Source of the DNA: Thermoplasmata archaeon
GTDB taxonomy: Archaea > Thermoplasmatota > Thermoplasmata > Lutacidiplasmatales > UBA184
NCBI GenBank assembly: GCA_021806135.1
Contig: JAJZYB010000005.1
Location: 1-64,000 of the forward strand
Direction of reading: 5' to 3'
DNA: 64,000 bases
Below are positions 16,370-20,457 of this stretch, piece after piece. How positions within the stretch are numbered: position 1 is the first letter of the stretch; each line of letters starts with the position of its first letter. Made by a program: the position numbers and the translations under genes. The notes beneath the pieces were generated by a model. It saw nothing but the letters and a program-made list of their open reading frames with translations. It was not told the origin of the DNA and did not search any database.

Positions 16370-16981
16370 TCAGTTGGGGCCCCAGGTCCGGCCGGGAACG
16401 TCGGAGGAGAGCGTGGCCATTCCCCGGGGACGACGAGCGGAGTGCCAAGCCCCCAGCACATGCCTCAGCAGCTGGTAGGCCGCCGCCGGCCCCTCCTTCC
16501 CGGGCGGGTCCTCGAAGACCTCCAGGACATCCCCCCGTATCCGCAGCCAGAGGCGGGAGCCGTCGTTCCGGTGCGTCCAGAGCAGTGTGGTATTCCCGGA
16601 CCCCTCGTAGAATCCCACCCACCGGAAGTCCCCGAACCAGCGGCCCGAGAGCCGTCCCAAGACCTCCTGAGGGCTGTCCTGGGGAGGGAGCTTGAGTTCC
16701 GCCACGGGGGCCCCTGTGGGGAGGTCCGAGGGGAGGGAGGCCCGACGTTGGGCCGAACCGTCGGTGACCAGCCGATACCCTTGGGCGGTCCGCTTGACGG
16801 TGCCCTCGCGGGCAAGGCGTCGGAGGGAGCGGGAGAGGGACTCCGGGTGGACGCGGAGGGCCCGGCGCAGCCCATTGAAGGCCACGGGGCCGGAGATCTC
16901 GGAGAGGAGCTCCCGGACCCGGTCGTCGAGCCGGGGGAGTTCGTCGAGGTCGGAGGGAGCCGGGGGAGGGAGTTCCGTCAT
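16370..16981 (-). CDS. Winged-helix DNA-binding protein, probably autoregulated
   Basis: A 203-residue protein whose residues about 17-75 look like a winged helix (LDDRVRELLSEISGPVAFNGLRRAL, SLSRSLRRLAREGTVKRTAQGYRLV). The C-terminal part (95-190) is a novel, tryptophan-rich region (RWFGDFRWVGFYEGSGNTTLLWTH, LWLRIRGDVLEVFED) that may sense a ligand; I do not recognise it. The promoter has a TATA box at 17015-17022 (minus strand) and a palindrome CTTTGGTGACCAAAG at 17001-17015 between TATA and start, which is a good candidate operator for autorepression. Confidence 0.8.
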   Translation of the reverse strand: MTELPPPAPSDLDELPRLDDRVRELLSEISGPVAFNGLRRALRVHPESLSRSLRRLAREGTVKRTAQGYRLVTDGSAQRRASLPSDLPTGAPVAELKLPPQDSPQEVLGRLSGRWFGDFRWVGFYEGSGNTTLLWTHRNDGSRLWLRIRGDVLEVFEDPPGKEGPAAAYQLLRHVLGAWHSARRPRGMATLSSDVPGRTWGPN

Positions 16982-17000
16982 GGACCCATCAGGCTGAATG

Positions 17001-17015
17001 CTTTGGTGACCAAAG
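17001..17015. promoter_or_regulatory. Palindromic operator overlapping the winged-helix gene promoter
   Basis: CTTTGGTGACCAAAG is an exact inverted repeat with 7-nt arms around one central base. It abuts the minus-strand TATA box (CTAAATAC, 17015-17022) and ends 20 nt before the ATG at 16981, so a bound dimer would block initiation. It is the sort of site a dimeric winged-helix protein binds, and the downstream gene encodes one. Confidence 0.65.
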
Positions 17016-17022
17016 TATTTAG
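17015..17022 (-). promoter_or_regulatory. TATA box of the winged-helix gene
   Basis: Minus-strand CTAAATAC is the only AT-rich 8-mer here, 34-41 nt upstream of the ATG at 16981, leaving a short leader of about 10 nt. Confidence 0.65.
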
Positions 17023-17492: not shown

Positions 17493-17499
17493 TATTTAT
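17493..17499 (+). promoter_or_regulatory. TATA box of the lysine-rich micro-gene
   Basis: TATTTAT in a GC-rich setting. The expected start site is near 17520, giving a leader of about 30-35 nt before the ATG at 17555, long enough for the purine-rich GTGGAG just upstream of it to act as a ribosome binding site. Confidence 0.6.
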
Positions 17500-17554
17500 C
17501 CGGGGACGCCCTACCCTTTCCCGAGACCGGGCCCAACACCCGGACGTGGAGAAC

Positions 17555-17608
17555 ATGCCGAAGAAGACGAAGGCGAAGAAGGGCTCGAAGAAGAAGAAGG
17601 GGAAGTAG
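17555..17608 (+). CDS. 17-residue lysine-rich micro-protein
   Basis: The frame encodes MPKKTKAKKGSKKKKGK then TAG; 10 of 17 residues are lysine. It is preceded by a TATA box at 17493-17499 and GTGGAG at 17546-17551, and followed by two hairpins and a T-run terminator (17657-17692), so it forms an isolated transcription unit of about 170 nt. A GTG at 17546 would add three residues (MEN). Such a peptide would bind nucleic acid or the ribosome non-specifically; that is inference from charge. The alternative is that the transcript is a non-coding RNA and the frame is incidental. I know no named family. Confidence 0.55.
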   Translation: MPKKTKAKKGSKKKKGK

Positions 17609-17656
17609 ATCTCCCCGCGGCGCGACTCTGCGGGGAGGCCCGCGACCTCGAACCCT

Positions 17657-17692
17657 GACGGAGGATCCTCCGTCCGGGTCTCCCCTTTTTTT
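17657..17692 (+). terminator. Hairpin plus T-run terminator
   Basis: GACGGAGGATCCTCCGTC (17657-17674) is a perfect inverted repeat, followed after CGGGTCTCCCC by seven T (17686-17692). A second hairpin, CTCCCCGC...GCGGGGAG, lies upstream at about 17611-17637. A seven-T run is rare in this GC-rich window, which supports real termination just after the lysine-rich micro-gene. Confidence 0.65.
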
Positions 17693-18127: not shown

Positions 18128-18137
18128 CTATATCTAT
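18128..18137 (+). promoter_or_regulatory. TATA box of the metG-PHP operon
   Basis: CTATATCTAT lies 26-35 nt before the metG ATG at 18163, the spacing seen for leaderless archaeal transcripts. Confidence 0.75.
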
Positions 18138-18162: not shown

Positions 18163-20457
18163 ATGCGCCGGATCTACGTGGGGGTGGCCTGGCCGTATGC
18201 CAACGCCCCTCAGCACATCGGCCACCTGGCGGGGAACGCGCTCCCCGCGGACATCTTCGCCCGGTTTCACCGGCTCCGGGGGAACGAGGTGCTCATGGTC
18301 TCCGGTTCCGACATGCACGGCACACCCGTCACCGTTCGGGCAGAGACCGAGGGGGTCGCCCCGGGCGTGGTGGCGGCCCGGGTCCATGAGATCCATGCGG
18401 AGGACTTCCGGCGGCTGGGGATCAGCTTCGACCTGTACACGCACACCGAGACGGAAGGGCACCAGAGGACGGCCCAGGAGATCTTCCTCCGGCTGCTGAA
18501 GAAGGGTCTCCTGGTGAAGCAGGTGGCCAAGGTGGCGTACTGCCCCCACCACGCACGGTTCCTGCCGGACCGGTACCTCACCGGGACCTGCCCGTTCTGC
18601 GGGAACCCGGGGGCGCGGGGGGATGAATGCGATGTGTGCTCCCGCATCCTGGAGCCCGAACAGCTCGGAGACCCCCGGTGCCGTCTCTGCGGCACCCCGG
18701 CCGAGTTCCGGCCGACCGAGCACTTCTACCTGGACCTGCCGTCGCTCGCCCCCGACCTTGCGCGTTACCACGAGAGGGTGCAGAAGGGTTGGCGGCCGTC
18801 GGTCCGACGGTTCACCGAGAACTACGTCGCCGAGGGCCTGCGCCGGCGACCGATCACCCGGGACATCCAGTGGGGGATCCCCGTCCCCCTCGACGGGTAC
18901 GAGGGGAAACGGTTGTACGTCTGGTTCGAGGCCGTCATGGGCTACCTCTCGGCGAGCCAGGAATGGGCCCGGCGATCCGGGGACCCCAGCGCCTGGAAGC
19001 GGTACTGGGAGGAGGGCTCTCCCGTGGAGATGTACAATTTCATGGGGAAGGACAACATCGCCTTCCACACGGTGTTCTGGCCCGCGATCCTGCTGGGCCT
19101 CGGAGGTCTCCACCTGCCCGACCACGTGGAGGCCAACGAGCATATGCAGACCCACGGGCGGAAGCTCTCCAAGTCCCGGGCCCCGGAGACCGTCAAGGTC
19201 GCGCTCCCCGACCTGCTGGGGGAGCTTCCCCCCGACGTCATCCGGTTCTACGCGGCCTACCACGCTCCCCAGAACCACGACACCGAGTTCGACCCCGATG
19301 AGCTCCGGCAGGAGAGCGCCCAGATCCTGGCGGACCAATGGGGGAACCTCGTGCAACGGACGCTCACGCTGGTGGAACGGACCTATGCCGGGAGGGTCCC
19401 GGCCCCGCCACCGGGCTGGGAGCCCGGGGAGAGCCAGGCCGGCAGGCTCCTTCGCCGGGCCCACGACCAGATCACCGACGACCTGGAGGGCGTCCGCCTG
19501 AAGGAGGCCCTGGACCGGGCCCTGGAGCTGGTCCGGGAGACCAATCGGACCTTCCACGAGGCCCACCCGTGGTCCGCCCCCGAACCGGAACGCGGCCGTA
19601 TCCTCTTCGAGACGCTCTGGACGATCAAAGCCCTCTCCCGGTACCTCTCCCCGTTCCTCCCTTTCTCCTCCGACCGGCTGGCACGGATGCTGGGCGAGCG
19701 CGACGGGGTTCCGCCCGGCTCTTGGGAGCAGGCCCTCCTGCCCCCCGTCCCCGGGACCCCTCTCGGCGAAGTGAGCCCGCTCTTCCCGAAGGAAGGGCCG
19801 GAGGAGGGGACGGGGACGACACGACCACCTACCGGCGGGTCCGTCCCCTCGTCGGCGACCCCCCGCTCCGCATCCGCTCCCTTGGACATCCGGGCGGCGA
19901 AGGTCCTCCGGGTGGAGGCTCACCCCCGGGCGGACCGTCTCTACGTCCTCACCCTCGACCTGGGCGAGCCTGTCCCGCGGACGGTGGTGGCCGGGCTCAA
20001 GGCCCACTACACGGTCGCGGAGCTCTCCGGAAGGACCGTTGCGGTGCTCGCCAACCTGGCCCCCCGGCCGCTTCGGGGCATCCTCTCCCAGGGCATGGTG
20101 CTCGCCGCGGAGGCGGGAGAGGTGGTCGGCGTGCTCGTCGCTCCGGAGGGGACCCCCGCGGGCACAGGCCTGGAGGGGTCGGGCGGGCAGGAGCTCCCGG
20201 TCCTCACCCATGAGGCCTTCTCCCAGGCCATCCTCGAGGTGGCGATCTGGAGCCCCTCACCGGAGGGAGGACCGGGGGGCACCCTCGAAACGGGCCAGGG
20301 CCCGGTCCGCTGGACGGGGCCGGACCTGGGCGAACACGGCCCGGTGATCGTCCAGCGTCGGGACGCTCCGACCGGCCCGGTCGAGCCTTTGCGCTGGGGA
20401 ACGGGGACTCCGGTCCGCCCGGCCCGGGACCTTCCCGCGGGGGCCCGGGTCCGCTGA
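18163..20457 (+). CDS. metG: Methionyl-tRNA synthetase with C-terminal tRNA-binding domain
   Basis: A 764-residue class Ia synthetase charging tRNA-Met. Seen: HIGH signature in APQHIGHLAGN (about 20-30); zinc knuckle cysteines CPHH, CPFCG, CDVC and CRLCG (about 127-175); KMSKS as GRKLSKSRAP (about 330); anticodon-binding helical domain; and a C-terminal EMAP/Trbp111-type OB fold (DIRAAKVLRVEAHPRADRLYVL to LSQGMVLAAE) separated by a low-complexity Pro/Thr linker. The fused OB domain is common but not universal in archaea (some carry it as a separate gene). About 80 residues follow the OB fold and are not recognised. The stop overlaps the start of the PHP gene by 1 nt (TGATG). Confidence 0.97.
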   Translation: MRRIYVGVAWPYANAPQHIGHLAGNALPADIFARFHRLRGNEVLMVSGSDMHGTPVTVRAETEGVAPGVVAARVHEIHAEDFRRLGISFDLYTHTETEGHQRTAQEIFLRLLKKGLLVKQVAKVAYCPHHARFLPDRYLTGTCPFCGNPGARGDECDVCSRILEPEQLGDPRCRLCGTPAEFRPTEHFYLDLPSLAPDLARYHERVQKGWRPSVRRFTENYVAEGLRRRPITRDIQWGIPVPLDGYEGKRLYVWFEAVMGYLSASQEWARRSGDPSAWKRYWEEGSPVEMYNFMGKDNIAFHTVFWPAILLGLGGLHLPDHVEANEHMQTHGRKLSKSRAPETVKVALPDLLGELPPDVIRFYAAYHAPQNHDTEFDPDELRQESAQILADQWGNLVQRTLTLVERTYAGRVPAPPPGWEPGESQAGRLLRRAHDQITDDLEGVRLKEALDRALELVRETNRTFHEAHPWSAPEPERGRILFETLWTIKALSRYLSPFLPFSSDRLARMLGERDGVPPGSWEQALLPPVPGTPLGEVSPLFPKEGPEEGTGTTRPPTGGSVPSSATPRSASAPLDIRAAKVLRVEAHPRADRLYVLTLDLGEPVPRTVVAGLKAHYTVAELSGRTVAVLANLAPRPLRGILSQGMVLAAEAGEVVGVLVAPEGTPAGTGLEGSGGQELPVLTHEAFSQAILEVAIWSPSPEGGPGGTLETGQGPVRWTGPDLGEHGPVIVQRRDAPTGPVEPLRWGTGTPVRPARDLPAGARVR

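Follow-up and report, generated by a model that had tools for sequence, protein, structure and literature searches.

Lysine-rich micro-genes of 10–17 codons form a family in Lutacidiplasmatales archaea and, in sister genera, accompany a covarying RNA motif

A 64,000-nucleotide stretch of archaeal DNA (hereafter the window) carries a micro-ORF of 17 codons, ten of them for lysine, that belongs to a genuine micro-gene family and is not a chance frame. This is shown at the level of sequence, in which the layout of the unit can be seen directly; transcription and translation are inferred. Four lines of evidence carry the conclusion: a conserved position upstream of the methionyl-tRNA synthetase (MetRS) gene, the absence of comparable frames from chance backgrounds, divergence biased towards synonymous change, and a new 71-nt RNA motif that leads to the same small ORF in sister genera. 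The family is previously undescribed in the libraries and literature searched.

Layout of the window micro-gene

The original prediction held that a TATA box, GTGGAG, ATG, 17 codons with 10 Lys, a stop codon, two hairpins and a run of seven T (T7) make up a complete small transcription unit, and on sequence this reading stands: positions 17493–17692 contain TATTTAT, GTGGAG just before the ATG, the 17-codon ORF, two GC-rich 3′ hairpins and T7 (Table 1). From the position of the TATA box, transcription is predicted to start at ~17521–17526. GTGGAG is at best a weak Shine-Dalgarno, and its GGAG is not conserved across the aligned relatives that share the window's promoter type (type b, below). 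The 5′-UTR hairpin was absent from the original prediction and was found here; in the window genome it is individually weak (z −0.8). The region 17609–17690 folds with −39.5 kcal/mol (z −2.5), better than its shuffles, and termination at T-runs is established for archaeal RNA polymerase. The encoded peptide has no acidic, bulky hydrophobic, Arg, Trp or aromatic residues. When the transcript is folded in full, its AAG-rich Lys codons are predicted to pair with the terminal CCCCTTTTTTT (17592–17692), which makes the ORF and the terminator tract complementary in part.

Table 1. Features of the micro-gene and its downstream neighbour, in window coordinates
Feature	Position	Strand	Remarks
TATA box TATTTAT	17493..17499	+	Sole copy of this word in 64 kb; 62 nt 5′ of ATG
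5′-UTR hairpin CCGGG-cccaaca-CCCGG	17527..17543	+	From sequence and RNAfold; near predicted transcript 5′ end
GGAG, possible weak Shine-Dalgarno	17548..17551	+	3 nt between GGAG end and ATG
Micro-ORF MPKKTKAKKGSKKKKGK	17555..17608	+	17 codons + TAG (ATG 17555, TAG 17608); 10 Lys
3′ hairpin 1 (TCTCCCCGCGG...CTGCGGGGAGG)	17610..17638	+	Predicted RNA fold of 17609–17690
3′ hairpin 2, with GACGGAG-gatc-CTCCGTC	17650..17682	+	Predicted RNA fold; perfect palindrome also an inverted self-match
T7 run, archaeal-type transcription terminator	17686..17692	+	Sole T6+ or A6+ run in 64 kb
MetRS TATA-like box TATATCTAT	18129–18137	+	26–34 nt 5′ of MetRS ATG
MetRS (metG)	18163..20457	+	Downstream syntenic neighbour; Pfam tRNA-synt_1g, 7e-136

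Elsewhere in the window, a perfect palindrome, TTTGGTGACCAAA (16997–17021), lies upstream of an HTH gene on the minus strand (16370–16981), and a TATA-like ATACT/CTAAATAC on the minus strand adjoins it just before that gene. Judged from sequence alone, the palindrome is likely to be an autoregulatory operator of the HTH gene.

A syntenic slot upstream of MetRS

The relatives of the window's MetRS in the public collection are Thermoplasmata MAGs, including those named AcS and SubAcS, which have been described as Lutacidiplasmatales, a single family of archaea of acidic soils with 67–71% GC (PMC9287336). The window has a GC content of 70.6%, and its source is a Lutacidiplasmatales-type Thermoplasmata archaeon.

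In three genera (g1, g2 and g3), a Lys-rich micro-ORF occupies one syntenic slot, upstream of MetRS and on the same strand. For g1 the synteny rests on the window genome only, as G001 and G002 of the same genus have no assembled MetRS 5′ region; the syntenic micro-ORFs of g2 and g3 come from five genomes and read MAKKAKKKSSKKKK (G003), MAKKAKGKKGKR (G019), MAKTTKSKGKKGKKGKR (G004 and G009) and MPKKTKKSKAKKGKK (G014). Upstream DAO and recombinase genes are common to most of the MetRS-syntenic loci. The distance from micro-ORF to MetRS ranges from 103 to 1078 nt, and in the window the T7 terminator and ~470 nt lie in between. MetRS is itself likely a separate leaderless unit, an inference drawn only from its own TATA-like box. 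This box and the varying distance argue that the micro-gene is a separate unit and not a MetRS leader. In genera g4–g7, the search upstream of MetRS gave no Lys-rich ORF.

Extent of the family and chance background

Synteny, pattern and RNA-motif searches together gave at least 36 micro-ORF loci, spread over 33 of the 103 family genomes; with narrow search patterns and many incomplete MAGs, these figures are lower bounds. Pattern searches covered 61 to 103 family genomes, and further members were found in g5, g6 and g7; DNA-level BLAST of the unit against relatives returned mostly short AAG-tract matches, which were sorted by reading frame. Given members in only 33 of the genomes, the micro-gene may be accessory. 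The peptides are 10–17 aa long, and in 32 of them Lys makes up 56% of the composition, alongside Gly, Ala, Ser, Thr, Pro, Arg, Gln and a single Val; Asp and Glu are lacking. We call the micro-ORFs homologous or analogous, homology of such low-complexity sequences being unprovable beyond syntenic or RNA-linked copies.

For the chance test, a Lys-rich ORF was defined by an ATG start, at least 40% Lys and a length of 9–20 aa. None occurred in 40 Markov-1 sequences of 64 kb (2.56 Mb). Nor were unrelated Lys-rich micro-ORFs found in 697 kb of family sequence, composed of loci chosen for the ORF and 37 MetRS loci not chosen for it, where the only hits were members of the micro-gene family.

The genes flanking the g5–g7 copies are heterogeneous and often convergent (MFS transporter, glycosyltransferase, TBP, DEAD-box helicase, U32 peptidase, GNAT enzymes and others), and no common operon, functional neighbour or fixed regulatory target was found among them. 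A DEAD-box RNA helicase lies 0.2–6 kb from several g5 micro-genes in differing arrangements (G033, G078, G079 and G061; loci L248, L307, L255 and L250), the neighbour being assigned in G061 by BLAST cluster only and in G078 by the layout shared with G033.

Purifying selection on the peptide

At the level of sequence, the micro-peptide is shown to be under purifying selection. Five close pairs differ by nine synonymous changes and one non-synonymous change (binomial P ~2e-5, with the neutral synonymous fraction taken as 0.23), and the three differences between G004 and G009 are all synonymous. This is a small test, and its pairs had been selected for being similar. Between less closely related copies the exchanges are conservative and stay within the same set of residues.

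Two promoter layouts and a 5′ hairpin

Two layouts precede the micro-ORFs. In type b, the type of the window (g1, g2, g7 and some g5), a TATA-like box lies 59–64 nt 5′ of the ATG, as seen in relatives G003, G013, G008, G082, G076a, G035b, G065, G011 and G036; the counterparts in G013 and G008 were read directly from sequence. A hairpin of 5–7 bp ends 12–16 nt 5′ of the ATG and is found in the same place, with other sequence, in 13 relatives, the pairing being kept while the sequence changes freely (GTCCGG..CCGGAC, CTCCTCC..GGAGGAG, CCGGG..CCCGG). The g3 copies have the 5′ hairpin, and by eye no clear TATA box. In type a (g5 and g6), where the pattern matched, the ATG is preceded at 31–33 nt by a box such as TTGAAGTA or TTAATGTA, and from this spacing a leaderless mRNA is predicted. 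The mean z of the 5′ hairpin is −1.8 in type b versus +0.2 in type a; the hairpins were assessed singly, since the many gaps in a MAFFT alignment of the 5′ UTRs ruled out testing for covariation. The promoter spacing used is supported by the tRNA genes of the family, which have TTTAA/TTAT-type boxes ~30 nt upstream.

A covarying 71-nt RNA motif in sister genera

Within ~20–40 nt of the stop codon, the micro-ORFs of g5, g6 and g7 are followed by a new 71-nt RNA element that covaries across these genera. The element (R1/R2) forms a long hairpin whose 5′ bulge region, GG.UUGC.UG, is invariant. In an alignment of 23 sequences, 94% of the cells pair, and double-sided (compensatory) changes occur in 17 of 23 pairs; double-change cells number 60, compared with 15 in shuffles and no more than 15 in slid controls, and none of 500 shuffles scored as high. 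As the structure was derived from the same alignment, the percentage paired is favoured, and the double-change count is the stronger measure. The R1 region of six relatives matched no Rfam covariance model of any family, and an Rfam search of the window gave only a tRNA at the gathering threshold. C/D, ACA-box and bulge-helix-bulge classes were considered for the motif, and by eye none of those features is present.

The RNA and the ORF lead to one another. A covariance search that began from the RNA recovered four further loci (G008, G011, G036 and G022) missed by the first ORF patterns, and in all four a Lys-rich ORF lies just upstream (MKKAKKGKKR, MPAKKKGKKSSSKKGKK twice, and MPSKKAVTKKKKKR). 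In the other direction, G273 and the second G071 copy, both found by their ORF and not part of the model, carry the 71-nt RNA at E 1e-12 or better. Marginal RNA matches in G000 (the window genome) and g1–g4 have no accompanying Lys-rich ORF. The element is absent from the window's own genome, from the rest of g1–g4 as searched, and from three g5 copies (G033, G078 and G083); in the window genome there are only unconserved 3′ hairpins, which differ from it. Three genomes (G035, G071 and G076) have two micro-gene copies each; in G035 and G076 one copy is of the 5′-hairpin type and the other apparently leaderless, and the 71-nt RNA is found on both.

The original claim, that this is a real micro-gene which gene callers miss and which has a promoter and a terminator of its own, is thus supported by synteny, synonymous-biased divergence and reciprocal ORF/RNA discovery, at the sequence level only and without transcript data. 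Conservation of the RNA stems in relatives while the codons drift would have counted against it; this check was run and the opposite was seen, in that g1–g3 keep the Lys codons and the TATA or 5′-hairpin layout while the 3′ stems differ. In g5–g7 conservation extends to ORF and stems alike. The alternative offered with that claim, a structured small RNA with a chance frame, failed in its chance frame and held in its structured transcript. That the peptide binds nucleic acid or the ribosome, as had also been suggested, remains an inference.

Proposed explanation

The explanation that we prefer as a whole, with a confidence only modestly greater than our doubt, is that of an independently transcribed micro-gene encoding a Lys polycation that binds RNA; here transcription, translation and binding are all inferred. 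In this view, the TATA box at 17493 would recruit RNA polymerase, giving a transcript of ~170 nt with the small 5′ hairpin at its start, the 17-codon ORF, and the GC-rich hairpins and T7 at its end. The product would be a disordered, Lys-rich polycation, for which an enzyme role is therefore unlikely, and most likely it would bind RNA electrostatically, either rRNA or its own structured transcript (autoregulation). In the sister genera the 3′ part of the transcript would be the conserved 71-nt RNA, making a peptide-plus-RNA (dual-function) transcript. The two ends of the transcript, its translation, binding to RNA or to the ribosome, and autoregulation are putative, without transcript, ribosome-profiling or peptide data. 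RNA rather than DNA as the partner is weakly favoured by the association with conserved RNA structures; an RNA target is nevertheless a guess, because so short a polycation could bind almost anything.

Alternative explanations

The rival that survives best, and that remains possible, is that RNA is the main actor: a regulatory sRNA, dual-function in g5–g7, with the peptide secondary or a mere marker of translation. It is supported by the strong covariation of the 71-nt element and its invariant bulge (UUGC.UG), by the position of every strong match to the element just after the ORF, and by the precedent of Methanosarcina mazei sRNA154, which has a leaderless 20-aa sORF (PMC11456600). Against it, the Lys-rich ORF persists without the 71-nt RNA in g1–g3, G033, G078 and G083, and the close pairs show constraint at the peptide level.

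A second reading, which we regard as unlikely, is DNA compaction, the peptide serving as a protamine- or polyamine-like counter-ion of chromatin. The peptide has no acidic residues, and a composition of Lys, Gly, Ala, Ser, Thr and Pro resembles histone H1-type tails. However, there is no link to DNA-binding genes, the conserved mRNA structures suit RNA binding better, and peptides this short seem minor beside Alba- or HTa-type proteins.

Similarly improbable is a very small, lineage-specific ribosomal protein. The peptide is tiny, highly basic and lineage-restricted, like archaeal ribosomal proteins recognised only by cryo-EM; aS33/aS34 (PMC11698992) and aL45–aL47 (PMC10516650) are lineage-specific archaeal ribosomal proteins that had been overlooked. 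MetRS is the neighbour in g1–g3, and a DEAD-box helicase lies near several g5 copies. Against this, the patchy distribution in the family is unlike that of a core ribosomal protein, and no PDB chain matched at E<=10 when the peptide was padded to 21 aa, a weak test given its low complexity. With M. mazei sRNA154 and the overlooked ribosomal proteins as precedents, the sRNA and the ribosomal reading are both plausible in principle.

A leader peptide or attenuator of the downstream MetRS is very unlikely and largely refuted. The same-strand position upstream of MetRS in g1, g2 and g3 speaks for it; against it stand the intervening terminator and MetRS's own TATA-like box, the widely varying distance, a peptide that is Lys-rich without a run of Met, and the lack of a Lys-rich ORF before MetRS in g4–g7, with the g5–g7 copies adjoining unrelated, often convergent genes. 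Finally, a chance ORF in a structured non-coding RNA, suggested by the ease with which short ORFs arise by chance and by the structured transcript, is all but excluded, being refuted for the family by the zero background, the synteny, the synonymous-biased divergence and the recovery of the ORF at every strong match of the RNA-first searches.

Relation to known small genes

Compared with known systems, the micro-gene of our preferred reading is close in form to archaeal small-protein-encoding, dual-function sRNAs of the M. mazei sRNA154 kind (PMC11456600). It shares with them a short stand-alone transcript, a tiny ORF at or near the 5′ end and, in g5–g7, a structured RNA part; copies with the box ~31–33 nt before the ATG also look leaderless. 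It differs in that its peptide is a Lys polycation, that ORF and RNA are separate (the RNA following the stop codon), that it has no known RNA target and that the window copy lacks the conserved RNA. Bacterial Spot 42/SpfP, with a 15-aa protein (cited in PMC11456600), is alike in the scale of transcript and peptide and differs in domain, sequence, composition and RNA, with no evidence of base-pairing targets for the micro-gene. Of the marks of a dual-function sRNA, a short independent unit with promoter and terminator is met (at the sequence level only), as is a small ORF under selection; a conserved structured RNA part is present in g5–g7 and absent in the window genome.

Tiny ribosomal proteins (eL41, bTHX, aS33/aS34, aL45–aL47) are likewise very small or newly recognised, basic and easily missed by annotation. 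eL41 and bTHX are Arg-rich and ~25 aa long, eL41 being an Arg-rich helix with Trp. The window peptide, in contrast, is 17 aa long, lacks Arg and aromatic residues and is patchily distributed, and it does not fit the description of eL41. The 17-mer, padded to 21 aa, had no Pfam or NCBIfam HMM match up to E 10, again a weak test for a low-complexity sequence.

Lys-rich micro-ORFs also occur in other Thermoplasmata families: MPKKKVAKKKAAKKKK in f18, MPKKKKTKKAAKKKKRKR in f21 and, in f5, a two-gene unit next to a Ras-like GTPase, encoding M[SA]CxKCGKKTKKKA...KKKK and MAPKKK.SKKAGKAKKKKGYYRGKEVRA. The f5 tandem microproteins (L313, L320, L321, L322 and L323) are 29–33 aa long, highly conserved and divergent from the Ras-like GTPase; one of the pair has a CxKCG start, the other ends in YYxGKEVRA, and a GGAGG-like site precedes each. 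They resemble the window peptide in being tiny, Lys-rich, intergenic, of the same class and unannotated in Pfam/NCBIfam where tested; they differ in their CxxC start or YYxGKEV end, their strong GGAGG Shine-Dalgarno and their Ras-like GTPase neighbour. Homology of the f5, f18 and f21 microproteins to the window peptide cannot be shown because of low complexity. An identity of the f5 YYxGKEV protein as eS30 was considered and dropped, because it has no PDB match and reports of eS30 are confined to TACK and Asgard archaea (PMC11698992).

Significance

Genes of 10–17 codons fall below the size limit of annotation, and here selection on them can be demonstrated from the DNA itself. The published gene-family study of Lutacidiplasmatales removed sequences shorter than 30 aa before building families (PMC9287336), and such micro-genes could therefore not have been seen there. 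In the sister genera the covarying RNA finds the micro-gene independently, which makes the smallest archaeal genes searchable. A bolder reading, to which we give rather less than even credence, is that these are a new archaeal gene class of 10–17-codon poly-lysine micropeptides encoded on their own structured transcripts, in which peptide and 71-nt RNA would form a self-regulating or ribosome-associated ribonucleoprotein module, with further Lys-rich microproteins across Thermoplasmata. Should binding of the peptide to its own RNA or to the ribosome prove true, few known regulatory ribonucleoproteins would be simpler.
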